A DNA stretch of 59,747 bases, from assembly GCA_015231915.1 (NCBI GenBank), contig JADGAR010000021.1, positions 1 to 59,747 on the forward strand. The letters are read 5' to 3'. Of the stretch, positions 27,855 to 52,272 are shown piece by piece. The first letter of the stretch is position 1. Each line of letters begins with the position of its first letter. The stretch comes from Magnetococcales bacterium. GTDB taxonomy: Bacteria > Pseudomonadota > Magnetococcia > Magnetococcales > Magnetaquicoccaceae. A program made the translations under genes and the position numbers. Under the pieces are notes generated by a model. It was not told the DNA's origin. It ran no database searches and saw only the letters and a program-made list of their open reading frames with translations.

Positions 27855-28650
27855 CGCGACCGTATTGCACACGACGTTGTTGACTCCCCTGATCATGATC
27901 CTGCAGGTCAGGCTGGACCGGGATGATTTCGAGTTCATTCCCGGTCAATTCACGGTGCTGGGGCTGAAGCGGTCGGCCCCCAGAGTGCCGGAGGCCGACC
28001 CGGAAGAGGTGTCTGTGGACAAACCGGACCGACTGATCCGGCGCGCCTACTCCATCGCGAGTGGTTCCGGGTCGAAGGATTGTCTGGAATTCTACATTTC
28101 TATGGTTACCAGCGGTGAGTTGACGCCCCGTTTGTTCGCCCTGGCACCTGGAGACCGGTTGTATGTCGGTGACGGTTCCAAGGGGATGTTCACCCTGACG
28201 GATGTGCCGCCTGACAAGAACATTCTGCTGGTGGGGACCGGGACCGGATTGGCCCCTTACATCAGCATGATCCGCAGCATGGCGCTGGAGGTGCGTGCGC
28301 CGTTGGTCTCTCTGGCGGTGATTCATGGCGCCTCTTATTCCTGGGATCTGGGATACCGGTCTGAACTGGAATCCCTGGATCGGCAATGTCCCCGTTTTCG
28401 TTATCTGCCCGTCATCGTGCGTCCCAACATTGACAAAAGCTGGCAGGGGCATACCGGCATGCTGCAACCATTGCTGATGCGGCCTGATATCGGCGCTTTG
28501 TGTGGCATGCCGATCGATCCGCAGCACACGCACATTTTTTTGTGTGGCAATCCGGTCATGGTGGAGTCGCTCATGCAGATTCTGACGCCACTGGGTTATC
28601 TTCACGGCACCCGGCAGACAGCGGGTACACTGCATCTCGAGAAATACTGA
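27847..28650 (+). CDS. fpr: Ferredoxin-NADP+ reductase
   Basis: 267 residues, typical of bacterial Fpr. FAD-binding RRAYSIASGSG near residue 64, NADP-binding GTGTGLAPYISMIRS near 130, and a C-terminal CGNPVMVESL block; the protein ends HLEKY, with an aromatic residue stacking on flavin as in this family. It interconverts NADPH and reduced ferredoxin. Position 480 bp before nifA and near two nif ferredoxins suggests a role in feeding nitrogenase. It overlaps the HD-GYP gene by 8 bp. Confidence 0.9.
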   Translation: MYNATVLHTTLLTPLIMILQVRLDRDDFEFIPGQFTVLGLKRSAPRVPEADPEEVSVDKPDRLIRRAYSIASGSGSKDCLEFYISMVTSGELTPRLFALAPGDRLYVGDGSKGMFTLTDVPPDKNILLVGTGTGLAPYISMIRSMALEVRAPLVSLAVIHGASYSWDLGYRSELESLDRQCPRFRYLPVIVRPNIDKSWQGHTGMLQPLLMRPDIGALCGMPIDPQHTHIFLCGNPVMVESLMQILTPLGYLHGTRQTAGTLHLEKY

Positions 28651-28852: not shown

Positions 28853-28913
28853 ATGCCTATTTTTTATACAGGCAAGAGATAACGGCCAATCTCCATGATT
28901 AATAAATAGGCAT
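28853..28913. repeat. Inverted repeat in the fpr-nifA intergenic region
   Basis: ATGCCTATTTTTTA (28853-28866) and TAATAAATAGGCAT (28900-28913) pair at 13 of 14 positions across a 33-bp spacer. The whole 28651-29129 gap is A+T-rich with no gene. The repeat could be a bidirectional terminator for fpr or an operator for nifA. Confidence 0.45.
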
Positions 28914-29016: not shown

Positions 29017-29032
29017 TGGTGCATTTTTTGCA
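29017..29032 (+). promoter_or_regulatory. Sigma-54-like promoter of nifA
   Basis: TGGTGCATTTTTTGCA has GG and GC exactly 10 bp apart and a perfect TTGCA -12 half; the -24 half departs from TGGCAC. Predicted transcription start near 29043, about 87 nt before the nifA ATG. It implies NtrC control or autoactivation by NifA. Confidence 0.45.
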
Positions 29033-29129: not shown

Positions 29130-30719
29130 ATGGAAATTCTGGAACCTTTTACCGAAGATGCCGTTTTCACAGGCAATGCGGTCACCACCACGGATCTGCG
29201 CGCCCTGTTTCACGTTGGCCAGGCGTTGCATCTGTCTGCAGACCCCCGGCGCACCATGCAAAGCGTGGCAGAAGCACTGCATCAGTACGCCGACATGAAA
29301 ATTGCCACCATCACCCTGGTGGATTCCTCGTCCGGGGCGCTGGTCATCAATGCGGTGGCCCCCCTGGGACCGAACGCCTTGTGCGACGATGTCTGTTACC
29401 GCTCGGGGGAGGGGGTGCTGGGCACGGTGCTGGCTGCCGGGCGTACCATTCTGGTGCCGCGCGCCGGAGATGAACCCCGTTTCCTGAACAAATGCGGTCT
29501 GCTGGAACGCAATCTGCCGTTCATTGGCGTGCCCATACGGATCGGCGCCCAGGAACTGGTCGGCGTGCTGGCGACCCAGCCCCGCCTGATGAACCAGGAA
29601 CGCCTGATGCAACAGGCATGGTTTCTGGAGATGGTCAGCCATTTGCTTGTGCAAAGCATCCTGTTGGCCCGCAAGGTGGAAGAGGAAAAAAGACACCTCG
29701 CCGCCCACCGGGATCAACTGCTCATGGAGGTACGCAACCGGTATGGGTTCGACAACGTGGTGGGACGGTCGGCGGCCATGCGCCAGGTGTTTGATCATGT
29801 GCGCATGGTCTCGCGCTGGAATACCACCGTGCTGCTGCGCGGCGAGTCCGGGACCGGCAAGGAGTTGATCGCCCATGCCATTCACTTCAATTCCCCCCGG
29901 GCCAAGGCGCCCTTCGTCAAGCTCAACTGTGCCGCCCTGCCCGACAACCTGCTGGAATCGGAACTGTTCGGTCACGAAAAAGGGGCCTTCACCGGCGCGG
30001 TGGGTACCCGACGCGGACGGTTTGAGCTTGCTCATGGCGGTACACTGTTTCTGGATGAACTGGGAGAGATCTCCCCCGCGTTTCAGGCCAAGCTCCTGCG
30101 CGTGTTGCAGGAAGGGGAGTTCGAACGGGTGGGCGGGGAGCAGACCCTGCGCGTGGATGTGCGCATCATCGCCGCCACCAATCGCAACCTGGAAGAGGCA
30201 GTGCAGCGGGGACAGTTCCGCCAGGATCTCTATTACCGCCTGAACGTCATGACCATCACGCTCCCCCCGTTGCGCGCCCGCAAGGAGGATCTCCCGGAGA
30301 TCGCCCGTTTCCTGCTGGCCCGCATCGCCAAGCGGCAGGGACGCCGACTGATGCTGACCGATTCCACCATGCGCGTGCTGATCCGGCACGATTGGCCGGG
30401 CAATGTGCGGGAGCTGGAAAATTGTCTGGAGCGGGCAGCGGTGATGAGCGAAGGCAACCTGTTGGTCCCGGAAAGCGTGATCCTGGTCAACACCCCCGGC
30501 GAGGTCAAACCCGTGCAGGCCGCAGCTGCAATGGTCCCGGCAACCCCTGACGGGGAGGCGGCCCCCGCCGAACTGGGGGAAGGGGAAAAGGATCGCGTGC
30601 TTCAGGCGTTGCGCAAGACGGGGTGGGTCAAGGCCAAGGCGGCACGCCTGCTGGGACTGACCCCGCGTCAGATCGCCTATCGCATCAAAATTTTTGCCAT
30701 CGAGACCGAGACCTTTTGA
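29130..30719 (+). CDS. nifA: Nif-specific sigma-54 activator NifA
   Basis: 529 residues. GAF domain about 28-175; AAA+ domain about 205-440 with GESGTGKE (near 237), GAFTGA (near 284) and [14 protein letters not shown]-terminal Fis-type HTH ([20 protein letters not shown]). Activates nif promoters. The linker between the AAA+ and HTH domains ([16 protein letters not shown] onward) has no Cys pair, unlike oxygen-sensitive rhizobial NifA, so it belongs to the type controlled by other means (NifL or PII). No nifL is in the window. nifV ends 12 bp downstream in convergent orientation. Confidence 0.95.
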
Positions 30720-32759: not shown

Positions 32760-33242
32760 TCATTCGTCCCAACCGTTGGCCAACATGGCCAAGAATTTTT
32801 CCTCCGCCTGTTTGGATGGCACAGGGGGTTTGAAAGGTGCCAGGGTGCCCACCTGGGCGACCGACTGCGCTTGCAGTTTCTCCAACAGGGAGGAGATGGC
32901 GGCTCCCTGCTGTACCACCAACGCGGTGATGCCGGCATCCGCCAACTGGCGTTTGGCGGCCTCGCCGATCGCCACGCAAAACAACAGACGGCAGCCGTCG
33001 AGCAACTGAACACGCTCCCCGACCCGACCGTTGTGGGTGTTGCAGGCCACGGATTGCAGCACCTCGCGCAGACGGACGGCCTCCGGGGCGATTTCGTAGA
33101 CAGCAAACCCGGTGGCCATGCCAAAATGCTGGTTGACATGCTGCCGGTCGCTGCTGGCAAAGGCCACCTTCCAGGTTGGTTCACCCATGACCGGCAGTCC
33201 CGGACCATGGTGAACGCGCAATCGACGCCATGCGTTGTTCAT
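32760..33242 (-). CDS. nifX: NifX, FeMo-co precursor-binding protein
   Basis: 160 residues. The core WKVAFASSDRQHVNQHFGMATGF is the dinitrogenase FeMo-cofactor-binding fold; it ends AEEKFLAMLANGWDE like known NifX proteins. NifX holds NifB-co/VK-cluster between NifB and NifEN. The start at 33242 (GGAG 9 nt upstream) gives the usual N-terminal extension before KVAFASSD and makes the gene overlap nifN by 62 bp. A start at 33188 would give only 8 bp overlap but a truncated N-terminus. Confidence 0.9.
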   Translation of the reverse strand: MNNAWRRLRVHHGPGLPVMGEPTWKVAFASSDRQHVNQHFGMATGFAVYEIAPEAVRLREVLQSVACNTHNGRVGERVQLLDGCRLLFCVAIGEAAKRQLADAGITALVVQQGAAISSLLEKLQAQSVAQVGTLAPFKPPVPSKQAEEKFLAMLANGWDE

Positions 33243-34602
33243 CGTTCACGGCTCCAAAGGGCGCAGGAATCGGACGCAACCCGCTGAAGTAGGAAGCAAC
33301 CCCGTGGGGACGGCAGGCCATCAGCAGATTGCTCATGGCAAACAGGAGATCCCGCCCCCCCTGGTAACCAATGTGCGTCTGCCGGAATCCGCCCATACGG
33401 TCGAAAATGGGCAATCCGGCGCGCAGCAGAGGGATGCGCAGCCGTTCCGAGGTCTCTGCCAGCCGGGAGTTGCCCACCAACAGCTCGGCCTGTTCCTGCA
33501 CGGCCAGGATTTCCAGGTCATCCAGGTCGCCCACGGTCAGGCACAGACCTTCTGTAGACGAGGGCGCGTGCGGAACCACGGCGGCTACGGTGCGTGTGCC
33601 CATTTCGGCGAACAGTTGGTGAAATCCGGCCACCAGTTCCAGTTCTCCAGCGATGGCCACCCGTTTTCCTCCCAGATGGAAATGGCTGTCCAGCATGGCG
33701 TCCTGCATCTGCCGACGCCAACGCTCTACGCGAGACGGCGCCTTGCGACCGACAAGACGGCACAGTTCCGCCACCAGGCGGTCGGTGGCATCCAGCCCCA
33801 TCAGATGCTCGAATCGCAGCATCGGCATGGGACACCGCTGCTGCAACCGTTCCGACGCCGGGAACAGGGAACGGCCAATCACCAAAGTGGCGCGCGCCTG
33901 ATGGAACCGCTCAAAAAAATCGAGCGGGGTGCCACCCGTGGTGACAGGCAGAAAATCGGTCTCGGAGAGGTGCCCGTCCAGGGCATCGGAGAGATCGGGC
34001 AGGAACGCCGCCTCCAGATCGAAGGCGGCCAGCAGATCCCGCAACGTCTCCAGGTCCCCCGGAGTCAGGCTGGAACCGGCCAATACATTGATCCGGGCGC
34101 TGGTGGTGGCTTCCCGGCAACGCGGGACGAGCAGATGCTCCACCATGGCCGTGACCGCCAGCCCGTAACCGCTCTCCTGACTGCCGGTAAAATCCGGCGC
34201 ATCGACCGGGATGATCGGCAGGTCATGGAATTGGGGGTACTCCTGCCGGAAACGCCGAATCACCCGTTGCAGGTCGCAACCCTGGATCGCGGCCAGTCCG
34301 GTGGAGATCACGCCGATGAGCGCGGCCCCGCTCTTGGTGGCGAGGGTGGCCAACGCCTCGATCAGGTTGTCATCCGCGCCCATGATCGTGCTGGTTTGCT
34401 CCATGGCCGTGGTCTGGATGGGGATCGGTTCCCGGAAGTGGCGCACGAAAAAGACCTTGGTGAACGCGCTGCACCCCTGGGAGCCGTGCAGCAGGGGCAT
34501 GGCGCCCGCCATGCCCTGAAAGGCCAGCACCGCGCCGACGGTCTGGCTGGTTTTCAGGGGACGCACCGTCAAGGCCTTGCGCTTGCGAATGATGTTGCTC
34601 AT
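33181..34602 (-). CDS. nifN: FeMo-co assembly scaffold subunit NifN
   Basis: 473 residues; beta subunit of the NifEN scaffold, related to NifK. Shows [31 protein letters not shown] near residue 14, [17 protein letters not shown], and [14 protein letters not shown]. The start overlaps the nifE stop as ATGA, giving coupled 1:1 synthesis. Confidence 0.94.
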
Positions 34603-35993
34603 CTCTGCTCTCCCGTCACGTCTGGGGATGTCGCCCAGGGCGCGGGACGGCGCACCCGTTCCCAGATCGGGCTGTGCATGGTGATGTCCAGTTGCCGCGC
34701 CAGCTCCGGGAGTCCCGCGTAACCGGCATAGGCGTGTTCCCGTTCCTGGTTGATGTCCAGAAAAGGCAGGCGGGCCTTCAACGCGGTGAACATGTTGCGA
34801 CCGCCGGCGATGAAGACATCGGCGCGCTGCTGACGAAAAAGCGTGAGCATCAGACGCGGGTTGCCCTCCTCGATCAGCACGGTCTCCTCGCCCAGCAACT
34901 CCCGGATGCGTTCCCGGTCCTGCTGGGTGGATTTTTTCACCCCGGTGGCCACCACCGTCATGCCCAGATCCTGCAGGGCGGAGACCACGGACCAGGATTT
35001 GACTCCGCCGGTGTACAGCAACGCCCGTTTGCCCTGCAGCCGTGCGCGCCAGGGCAGCAACTCCCGGCTCAGCCTTGCCTCTTCCCGCTGGATCAGCGCC
35101 TCAGTCCGTTGTTGCAAGTCGAGATCGCCGGTCAATCGGGCGATGCTCCGCAGGGCGTCCGAGGTGTCGCGCATGCCGTAAAAACTCCCCTCGAACCAGG
35201 GGATGGCGTATTGCTCTTCCAGTTTGCGCGCCACGTTGATCAACGCCTTGGAGCAAACCAGCATGGTGACTTCGGCCCGGTGCATGGTCTGCACCTCGTG
35301 AAAGCGGGTATCCCCGGCCAGGGTGCACAGCACCCGGATGCCCAGTTCGTCCAACAGCGGGGCCACATGCCAGAACTCCCCGGCGATGTTGAACTCTCCC
35401 ACCAGGTTGACGGTGTGAATGCGCATGCCCGGCCTGGGCGCAACCGGCTCCGGTTCGGCGGTTCCCACCACATGTTTCATGATGGTCTCCCCGGCGATGC
35501 GGTTGCCGAGATTTTTGGTGCCATAGAATCCGGCGGCGTCCACCGGGATGACCGGCAGACCAAAGGAGTCCTGCGCCGCGCGGCAGACGCTTTCCAGATC
35601 ATCGCCGATCGAGGCGGGGATGCAGGTCTGATAGACGAATATCGCCGCCGGACGCCACCGTTCCACAGTCGTTTTGATGGCGAACAGCAACTTTTTTTCG
35701 CCACGTCCCATGATGATCTCCTGCTCGGAGAGATCGGTGGTCAACCCCAGCCGGTGCAGTTCGGGACCGCTGGACAACGAGCCGCGACCGTTCCAGGAAC
35801 TCCCCGCGCAGGCGATGGCACCGTGGACGATGTGCGCTGCGTCGCTGATGGGAAACAGGGTGATCTGTGCGCCGTCGAAACTGCACCCTCCGGCGGTGGC
35901 GCCCGGCTTGAGCTTGCCGCAGGTCGCCTTGTCCGGTGTGTTGTGTCGGCAGGCTGGCTCGTCCAGCAGCCGGGCAATTTCGGAGTTTTTCAT
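34599..35993 (-). CDS. nifE: FeMo-co assembly scaffold subunit NifE
   Basis: 464 residues; alpha subunit of NifEN, related to NifD. Cluster-ligand region [20 protein letters not shown], then [31 protein letters not shown] and [20 protein letters not shown] lies 6 nt before the ATG at 35993; an ATG at 35999 abuts that box and is unlikely. First gene of the operon, with a near-perfect sigma-54 promoter 38 bp upstream. Confidence 0.94.
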
Positions 35994-36030: not shown

Positions 36031-36046
36031 AGCAACGGCTGTGCCA
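36031..36046 (-). promoter_or_regulatory. Sigma-54 promoter of the nifE operon
   Basis: Minus-strand TGGCACAGCCGTTGCT is a full match to TGGCACR-N4-TTGCW. Predicted start about 25 nt before the nifE ATG. It faces the nifB promoter across the palindrome at 36089-36134. Confidence 0.8.
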
Positions 36047-36088
36047 TTCGCAATATATTGAAATTATTTAAAAATAACTCGTTCCGGT

Positions 36089-36134
36089 TTGTCCGGAATC
36101 CGACCAAAGGCCCCTTTGGTCGGATTCCGGACAA
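36089..36134. repeat. Perfect 46-bp palindrome between nifE and nifB promoters
   Basis: Two 22-nt arms (36089-36110 and 36113-36134) are exact reverse complements around a CC centre. The outer ends read TTGTCCGG and CCGGACAA. Each arm contains TGT-N10-ACC, one base from the NifA site TGT-N10-ACA. The centre lies about 65 bp from the nifE -24 box and about 107 bp from the nifB -12 box, where an activator site would act on both promoters. Confidence 0.85.
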
Positions 36135-36204
36135 TTGTGCGTCCATTGTCTGCATGGTCCGGTTTGTGTCATGGTTAAATGATTAAAAAACAATATGTTA
36201 GCTC

Positions 36205-36220
36205 AGGCACAGCTTTTGCT
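36205..36220 (+). promoter_or_regulatory. Sigma-54 promoter of the nifB operon
   Basis: AGGCACAGCTTTTGCT keeps GGCAC and TTGC with the correct 10-bp GG-GC spacing; only the leading T is replaced. Predicted start about 38 nt before the nifB ATG. Confidence 0.72.
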
Positions 36221-36268: not shown

Positions 36269-37609
36269 ATGAGCAGTGTCCAAGAGTCGGGATGTAAATC
36301 GATCCGGTCGGACAGTGGGTTGGTGGAGGAGCATCCCTGTTATTCGGAAGGGGCCTCTCACCGTTACGCCCGCATGCATCTGGCGGTGGCCCCGGCTTGC
36401 AATATGCAGTGTCGTTATTGCAACCGAAAATTCGATTGCGCCAATGAATCCAGGCCCGGCGTGGTTTCCGGGGTGCTGGCCCCAGCTCAGGCGCTGGAGC
36501 GCGCCGGGGAGGCCATGGGGCGCCTGCCCAATCTGCGGGTGATCGGTTTTGCCGGACCGGGCGACCCGTTGGCCAACCGGGAACGGGTGTTTGCCACCTG
36601 CAAGCCGGTGCGCAAGCGTTTTCCTGATGTGCATTTGTGTCTTTCCACCAATGGTCTGCATCTCCCGGAGGCGGTGGACGGGATCGTCGGTCATGGAATT
36701 CGTCATGTCACCATCACCCTGAACGCCCTGGATCCGGAGGTGGGGGCGGAAATCTACTCCTGGATCTTCTGGCGGAAGAAACGCCGGCGCGGCGTGGAGG
36801 CGGCGCGCATTCTTCTGGAACAGCAACTGGCGGGGATGTCCGCCCTGCTCGCGCGCGGCGTGCTGGTGAAGGTCAACACGGTCCTGATACCGGGAATCAA
36901 TGCCGGACAGGTGTCGGAGATCAACCGTCTGGTCAGCGATGCCGGGGTGTTCAGTCACAATGTCATGCCCCTGATCAGCGCGCCGGAGCATGGCACCTAT
37001 TACGGCGTCATGGGGATTCCGGGGCCGTCTGAAGCGGAATTACAACAGGTGCGTGGTCTCTGCCAGGGGTCGGCCCGGTTGATGACCCATTGCCGTCAGT
37101 GCCGGGCGGATGCGGCAGGGTTGTTGGGCATGGATCGCCACAACGAGCTGCTGCCAGCGTCGCCGGGGGGCAGCCGGGTGATCCCCATTCACCGCCCACG
37201 GCGGGAACCGGTGGCCAATCCGGTGCTGCTCGCTGTGGCCAGTCTGACCGGTGAGACGGTGGATACCCATTTTGGCCATGCCGGTTTTTTTCGGATTTAC
37301 CGGGTGAGCGGAGATCGGATCGAAGCGCTGGGCGAACGCGTTGTGCCGCAGTATTGCCAGGGTGATGACCGGTGTGTGGAAGAAAATCACGTCTTGAACA
37401 ACGCCCTGAACGCGTTGCACGACTGTCAGGGGGTGATCTGCTCCCGCATCGGATACACCCCCTGGCAGGCGTTGCTGGCGCGTGGCATCGCGCCTGTGAA
37501 CCGCCATGCGGAGCAGTCGGTGAGGGAGGCGTTGCGCCAAACCGCGCTTATGTTGCAGGCGAGAGAGGGCGCTGCGATTCCCATGGCTGCCGCCGTCGGC
37601 ATGCAATAG
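36269..37609 (+). CDS. nifB: Radical SAM FeMo-co biosynthesis protein NifB
   Basis: 446 residues. Radical SAM motif CNMQCRYCNRKFDC (Cys 44, 48 and 51) with further Cys around it. The SAM domain spans about residues 38-300 and is followed by a NifX-like C-terminal domain (LLAVASLTGETVDTHFGHAGFF) about 325-430. It makes NifB-co, the 8Fe-9S-C core of the cofactor. AAGGAG lies 7 nt before the ATG; a reading from 36179 would include the promoter. First of four genes nifB-fdxN-nifQ-draG. Confidence 0.95.
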   Translation: MSSVQESGCKSIRSDSGLVEEHPCYSEGASHRYARMHLAVAPACNMQCRYCNRKFDCANESRPGVVSGVLAPAQALERAGEAMGRLPNLRVIGFAGPGDPLANRERVFATCKPVRKRFPDVHLCLSTNGLHLPEAVDGIVGHGIRHVTITLNALDPEVGAEIYSWIFWRKKRRRGVEAARILLEQQLAGMSALLARGVLVKVNTVLIPGINAGQVSEINRLVSDAGVFSHNVMPLISAPEHGTYYGVMGIPGPSEAELQQVRGLCQGSARLMTHCRQCRADAAGLLGMDRHNELLPASPGGSRVIPIHRPRREPVANPVLLAVASLTGETVDTHFGHAGFFRIYRVSGDRIEALGERVVPQYCQGDDRCVEENHVLNNALNALHDCQGVICSRIGYTPWQALLARGIAPVNRHAEQSVREALRQTALMLQAREGAAIPMAAAVGMQ

Positions 37610-40276: not shown

Positions 40277-40292
40277 TGTAAACAACCGGACA
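40277..40292 (+). promoter_or_regulatory. NifA upstream activator site of nifH
   Basis: TGTAAACAACCGGACA is a canonical TGT-N10-ACA. It lies about 110 bp upstream of the nifH -24/-12 element, the usual distance for NifA looping. A near match (TGT-N10-ACC) follows at 40306-40321. Confidence 0.65.
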
Positions 40293-40382
40293 TTCGGACG
40301 TGTCTTGTCGCATTTCAGACCTGAAAATTCCCGGCAGCGAATCTAAAATTCTGTTTATTATTATGATATTGCATGATCGTGA

Positions 40383-44499: not shown

Positions 44500-44712
44500 G
44501 TGCCGGAGATCATGTTGCGACGCAGCGAGCGCGGTGAGTTGTTGTGCTATGTGCCCAAGAAGGATCTGGAAACGGTGGTACGGGAGGTGGAGTTCGATCA
44601 GGATGACCGCTGGGGCGGCACGCTGAGTCTGGCCAATGGGGAAAAACTGCATATGGAACCCATGGCGACCAGACCGCGTTTGCCGGTGGCCTTGCGTGTG
44701 CGCAAATTGTGA
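44500..44712 (+). CDS. nifT: NifT/FixU protein
   Basis: 70 residues with the family pattern IMLRRSERGELLCYVPKKDL and WGGTLSLANGEKL. Starts with GTG at 44500, with a G-rich ribosome site (AGGGGGTG) upstream. It follows nifK by 10 bp, the standard place for nifT. Function is not established; deletions elsewhere have little effect. Confidence 0.9.
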   Translation: MPEIMLRRSERGELLCYVPKKDLETVVREVEFDQDDRWGGTLSLANGEKLHMEPMATRPRLPVALRVRKL

Positions 44713-44776
44713 GGTGGGCTGGCGGGGGGATTCCCCCGCCAGCCGTTCAAGACGAAAGAATACAAGGAGTTGGATC

Positions 44777-45469
44777 ATGACCGTTCTTTCCCGTGAGTTG
44801 ACTGAAGAGCTTGCCTTGCGCATCGGCCTGGCCAGTCGGGAGTTGGCGTTGACCTCCCCGCGCGTGTTGATCGAGGGGTTGCAGAAGCTGTTTGGCGGGC
44901 AGTTCCCGGATCGGGAGCGGATGAAAACCGTTACGCCGTGCCAGTTGCGTCCCTTGTTGCAGCAGGATGTGCCAGGTCTCACCGGCAGAAGTCTCAAGGC
45001 CGCCCTGCATTGGCTGACGAACTGGGAGGCGGCGGCAGGGGCCTGCGGTTCGGCGGAACCGATTGCCCGACAGGCGCCCGGCGGGGTGGTGCGGGTGGCC
45101 ATGGCCAGCCATGGGCATGGCCGGCTGGAGGGACATTTTGCCTCCTGCAGCCACTTCATGATCCATGATGTCACCCCGCAAGAGGTGCGCTTCGTGGCGG
45201 AGCGGGCGTTCTCCCCGGTCGCGGAGGCGGGCGACAAGGTGGAGGCCAGGCTCGCTTTGATCCGGGACAGCCGGATTCTGGTGGTGGCCAGTATCGGCGG
45301 TCCGGCTGCAGCCCGGGTGACCCGGAGCGGCCTGTTGCCACTCAAGGTGACGGATGGCACGACCGCCACGGATTGGCTGGAAAGTCTGCGTCAGGTGTTG
45401 GCGGGAACGCCTCCCCCCTGGTTGCGGCGCTGCATGTCCGGGATTGACAGCGAACGGATTGGCGTCTAA
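44777..45469 (+). CDS. nafY: NafY/NifY-type FeMo-co binding protein
   Basis: 230 residues. N-terminal helical domain about 1-95 (LTEELALRIGLASREL, LPLLQQDVPGLTGRSLKAAL-like, ALHWLTNWEAA), then a NifX-like domain about 105-205 (VRVAMASHGHGRLEGHFASC, RILVVASIGGPAAARV). Such proteins bind apo-NifDK and FeMo-co before insertion. Follows nifT by 64 bp with AAGGAG before the ATG. NifY versus NafY cannot be separated by eye. Confidence 0.82.
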   Translation: MTVLSRELTEELALRIGLASRELALTSPRVLIEGLQKLFGGQFPDRERMKTVTPCQLRPLLQQDVPGLTGRSLKAALHWLTNWEAAAGACGSAEPIARQAPGGVVRVAMASHGHGRLEGHFASCSHFMIHDVTPQEVRFVAERAFSPVAEAGDKVEARLALIRDSRILVVASIGGPAAARVTRSGLLPLKVTDGTTATDWLESLRQVLAGTPPPWLRRCMSGIDSERIGV

Positions 45470-52084: not shown

Positions 52085-52272
52085 CGTTTTCAGACCAGGG
52101 GAAACGAATCGAACTTCTGGAAAAATTGAATTCAATCATAGGTATCGAAATCCAACAGGACAAAATCGGATCTTTCCCGAAATTCCCTCTTTCTGTTCTT
52201 CAAGACGATAACGCGCTTCAAAGATTCTTTGAGGTATGTGCGTGTGTGATTGCTGACAGCAGGAAGGGATGA
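52039..52272 (+). pseudogene. 3' portion of the split gene
   Basis: Reads NGMIDVSFGNIKGHSPFSDQ, then GKRIELLEKLNSIIGIEIQQ and FPLSVLQDDNALQRFFEVCA to a TGA at 52270. No start or ribosome site of its own. The pattern (ELL..LN.I.G..I..D, PLS.L.D..AL..F) recalls the C-terminus of uncharacterised nuclease-like proteins. It joins seamlessly to the 50986 fragment across the repeat. Confidence 0.55.

Follow-up and report, generated by a model that had tools for sequence, protein, structure and literature searches.

Overall, our analysis indicates that the perfect 46-bp palindrome at positions 36089..36134 of the window, i.e. the whole stretch of 59,747 nucleotides of Magnetococcales DNA that was analysed, very probably acts as an enhancer shared by two nif operons. 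It would consist of two mirrored binding sites for the activator NifA in the interval that separates the divergent sigma-54 promoters of the nifE and nifB operons, would be aided by IHF, and would probably owe its symmetry to the copying of one arm onto the other. Such an element is ordinary in kind and neat in layout.

The genes on both sides of the palindrome score above their curated cutoffs. nifE lies on the minus strand (34599..35993; TIGR01283, 658 bits vs a cutoff of 505; with 35999 as a possible alternative start) and nifB on the plus strand (36269..37609; TIGR01290, 513 bits vs a cutoff of 344). The same cluster also carries nifA, nifV, nifN, nifX-like genes and draG; nifH, nifD and nifK, as read from the open reading frames and the NifH motif, come next. 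The NifX-like genes at 32760-33242 (after nifN) and 44636-45469 (after nifK) score 77 and 91 bits, respectively, which is below the TIGR02663 cutoff of 112. The host belongs to the Magnetococcales, and the nearest matches of the nifE protein in named genomes come from Magnetococcales metagenome assemblies. The predicted binding protein is encoded in this genome by nifA at 29130..30719 on the plus strand (TIGR01817, 627 bits vs a cutoff of 529, nearly full length). About 100 bp before nifA, a sigma-54-like element, TGGTGCATTTTTTGCA, is present at 29017-29032; nifA may therefore be transcribed from a sigma-54 promoter of its own. No strong match to a NifA site was seen in the vicinity of this element. 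An inverted repeat, ATGCCTATTTTTTA / TAATAAATAGGCAT, is located further upstream of nifA at 28853-28913 in an AT-rich intergenic stretch.

Both nifE and nifB are preceded by a GG-N10-GC core close to TGGCAC-N5-TTGCW. The nifE promoter TGGCACAGCCGTTGCT (36046-36031, minus strand) matches the -24/-12 consensus perfectly, with 0 mismatches, and the nifB promoter AGGCACAGCTTTTGCT (36205-36220, plus strand) matches it with one mismatch, in line with what an earlier note on this DNA had claimed for the two. The same note had described the promoters as face-to-back; as they point away from each other, back to back on opposite strands, the region is instead a divergent promoter pair. The GG and GC elements are kept in all seven genomes with divergent nifE and nifB genes.

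The palindrome itself is an exact inverted repeat of two 22-nt arms (36089-36110 and 36113-36134), which are 100% complementary around a CC centre, as noted before. Of the 14 inverted repeats listed for the window, it is the only perfect one; the remaining ones are 74-93% complementary, several with overlapping arms. Each arm contains the sequence TGT-N10-ACC, at 36090-36105 on the plus strand and at 36133-36118 on the minus strand, and is therefore, as had also been stated, one base away from the consensus of NifA upstream activator sequences, TGT-N10-ACA (PMC4999443, which does not mention Magnetococcus). Neither arm matches the strict consensus, the inner half-site being GGT instead of TGT in both. 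Literature searches on TGT-N10-ACC in connection with NifA and on paired NifA sites with IHF found nothing.

The arms were scored with a symmetric weight matrix built only from nifH upstream sites of other genomes, without any nifE-nifB sequence, and the scan covered the window and the extracted loci. Out of 59,732 positions in the window, the two copies of TGTCCGGAATCCGACC rank 3rd (36090..36105, plus strand, the nifE-proximal site) and 4th (36118..36133, minus strand), and the window's own nifH sites rank 1st and 6th. When sites were scored as pairs with a spacing of 27-31 bp, the arms came first in the window with 32.0 bits and the nifH pair second with 30.5 bits; among pairs that involve none of these four sites, the highest score is far lower, at 13.2 bits. 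Strong lone matches are present at 28081-28096 (16.2 bits), 52243-52258 (14.9 bits) and 18651, all without a partner at 28-30 bp; the first two may be due to chance.

The nifH promoters provide an internal comparison. In the window, the double site TGTAAACAACCGGACA / TGTCGCATTTCAGACC is located at 40277..40321 on the plus strand with a spacing of 29 bp, and nifH is preceded by two NifA-type sites at a distance of exactly 29 bp in 17 of 17 genomes (L061-L080), of which 16, including the window's genome, belong to the same order according to their kinship labels and one (L079) comes from elsewhere in the phylum. The promoter-proximal site, located around -100 to -103 in the majority of genomes, starts with TGTCG[CT][AG]T and ends in ACC in 12 of the 17; the distal site, 29 bp further upstream, is TGT-N10-ACA in all of them. 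The TGT-N10-ACC variant is thus also found among the sites from which the matrix was derived. Judged from these sequences, the ACC-for-ACA departure is a habit of the lineage, and TGT-N10-ACC is normal here.

Furthermore, the inverted site pair was found in all seven Magnetococcales genomes in which divergent nifE and nifB were detected, the window's genome included; these are related genomes, so that the counts are not independent, and G001 was counted as divergent on the basis of a visible nifB reading frame that is one residue off the NifB motif. The two arms differ from each other at 0 of 16 positions in the window's genome and at 1, 1, 3, 3, 3 and 4 positions in the relatives, one of which carries an arm with the sequence TGTCCGAAACCGGACC. 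The centre of the palindrome varies among the relatives, and palindromy is perfect only in the window's genome. The site centres are 28 bp apart in the window's genome; this spacing is 29 bp in five of the relatives and 18 bp in the sixth. Because the arms diverge and the centre is not conserved, two sites have been kept and not one long palindrome, to which more weight had been given implicitly before. In a distant relative without a divergent nifB (G037, L050), an inverted near-mirror pair, TGTAGCAGACACGACA / TGTCGTGTTTACTACA, is found before nifE with a spacing of 30 bp.

These comparisons bear on the best of the alternatives, namely that a different palindrome-binding regulator, e.g. a repressor or a protein that senses metals or redox state, takes the 46 bp as one site and that NifA exerts its effect from elsewhere in the intergenic region. 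The symmetry indeed far exceeds that of one NifA site, and in most relatives the inner half-sites depart from TGT. However, what the relatives hold are two 16-bp sites and neither the centre nor the full symmetry, no other position in the nifE-nifB intergenic region scores as a NifA site with the matrix, and the same ACC type of site occurs at nifH. We therefore consider this alternative improbable. The earlier note had offered two proposals at this point: a separate regulator, which is not needed, and two NifA dimers serving both operons, for which the independent matrix, the conservation in 7/7 genomes and the occurrence of TGT-N10-ACC at nifH provide good comparative support.

NifA sites typically lie about 80-150 bp upstream of the transcription start. 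Starts were predicted at 12 nt past the C of the -12 element. On this basis, the site centres in the window's genome are at -77.5 and -105.5 with respect to nifE and at -105.5 and -133.5 with respect to nifB; the site at 36118-36133 is thus equidistant from both predicted starts. The nifE-proximal site is found at -77.5 from the predicted nifE start in 7/7 genomes. Relative to nifE, the second site is centred at -105.5 or -106.5 in six of the seven genomes and at -95.5 in G026; relative to nifB, it is centred at -104.5 to -106.5 in five genomes, at -117.5 in G005 and at -95.5 in G001. Each of these three larger departures amounts to about 11 bp, i.e. one turn of the DNA, and the one in G005 is visible as an 11-bp tandem duplication. 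This series, in which the larger shifts are all of about 11 bp, suggests that the helical phase between NifA site and promoter is under selection.

Between the site pair and the promoters, one IHF-like site with one mismatch to WATCAANNNNTTR is present on each side in the window's genome, TTTCAATATATTG at 36051..36063 (minus strand) on the nifE side and AAACAATATGTTA at 36188..36200 (plus strand) on the nifB side. The nifE-side site is perfect and in the same place in six relatives (6/7 genomes), vs 0.01-0.03 such sites expected per region; on the nifB side it is perfect in two relatives and weak or absent in the others. In the mechanism that we propose, two NifA dimers would bind side by side with their centres 28 bp apart (29 bp in most relatives), and this adjacent binding would help them to assemble the active AAA+ oligomer. 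IHF would bend the DNA between sites and promoters, so that NifA reaches the sigma-54 polymerase at either promoter. The site about 106 bp from both starts could serve both promoters, with the other site as its nifE-proximal partner.

A structural role of the DNA or RNA, as a cruciform or as a bidirectional terminator or insulator between the divergent units, might be expected from the stable hairpin that the palindrome can form as DNA (-25.4 kcal/mol, z -10.7, with 0 of 200 shuffles equally good). However, the palindrome is located between the two sigma-54 promoters and upstream of both predicted starts, and for this reason it is part of neither transcript. The palindrome itself was not called in the terminator scan, and neither this nor its position fits an intrinsic terminator, in which a GC-rich stem with a T run behind it closes a transcript. 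The terminator was thus rejected by position and scan, as the earlier note had anticipated. Moreover, hairpin strength varies among the relatives, whose arms differ at up to 4 of 16 positions and whose centres differ as well. A structural function is very unlikely on these grounds.

The whole 4.02-Mb draft genome was searched with the 16-nt core, allowing up to three mismatches. The two arms were recovered exactly, one further match had two mismatches and the rest was three-mismatch background, so that nothing besides the arms is closer than two mismatches to the 16-mer; many copies, the mark of a dispersed palindromic repeat, are absent from this draft. Perfect palindromes do characterise certain families of dispersed repeats, but the insertion of a mobile or dispersed repeat by chance is hardly conceivable for a single-copy element whose site pair occupies the orthologous place in six relatives, and the repeat family was rejected by this search, an outcome that favours the reading of the earlier note, where the check had been called for.

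Regarding the origin of the perfect symmetry, a quasi-palindrome is to be expected wherever two sites of the same type are inverted with respect to each other. As the two arms represent the same type of binding site, the identity over 22 nt does not represent 22 independent coincidences. Resampling of the relatives' arms gave a mean of 2.8 mismatches and a P of about 0.02 for identity at 16/16 positions; an extra outer T and an inner AAAGG extend the match beyond these resampled positions. Arms are also more alike within than between genomes, with 15 summed mismatches vs 20.7 expected over all 5040 pairings (P = 0.014, or 0.017 without the near-duplicate G005, both uncorrected for genome relatedness). 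Since palindromy is perfect only in the window's genome and the relatives differ at 1-4 of 16 positions, it is probably a product of arm homogenisation that is tolerated rather than required; the case for homogenisation consists of one perfect and two near-perfect examples. One arm would have been copied onto the other by template switching at the quasipalindrome. Template switching is known to generate mutations at quasipalindromes (PMC7202029). Such an event could give the symmetry together with a small indel, e.g. 28 vs 29 bp. As a tentative extension, the element might be a bidirectional enhancer, in which the equidistant, in-phase site drives both promoters and its mirror partner stabilises the complex, with arms that evolve in concert and repeatedly become perfect palindromes.

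The present work describes a NifA enhancer layout for the Magnetococcales, a magnetotactic group whose nif promoters were not treated in the literature searched, and a site shared by two promoters at equal distance lends itself to a compact test of how both can be served by one activator complex. When compared with known systems, each site resembles the NifA upstream activator sequence TGT-N10-ACA in being a 16-bp dyad with an outer TGT, about 78-134 bp upstream of -24/-12 starts, with nif genes on both sides and nifA nearby. It differs from it in the inner GGT half, in the arrangement of two mirror sites between divergent operons and in the identity of the arms. The double site at nifH in the Magnetococcales is similar in that its two sites have a spacing of 29 bp and one of them is usually TGT-N10-ACC. 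However, that pair serves one promoter and is not a mirror image, whereas in the nifE-nifB pair the two ACC halves point towards each other, with a spacing of 28 bp in the window's genome. In the enteric glnA enhancer, two NtrC dimers bind cooperatively upstream of a sigma-54 promoter, with a spacing of about three turns of the DNA. The nifE-nifB element would share with it the pairing of activator dimers and possibly their cooperativity, although NtrC is a different activator with a different site sequence and its enhancer is usually described for one promoter.
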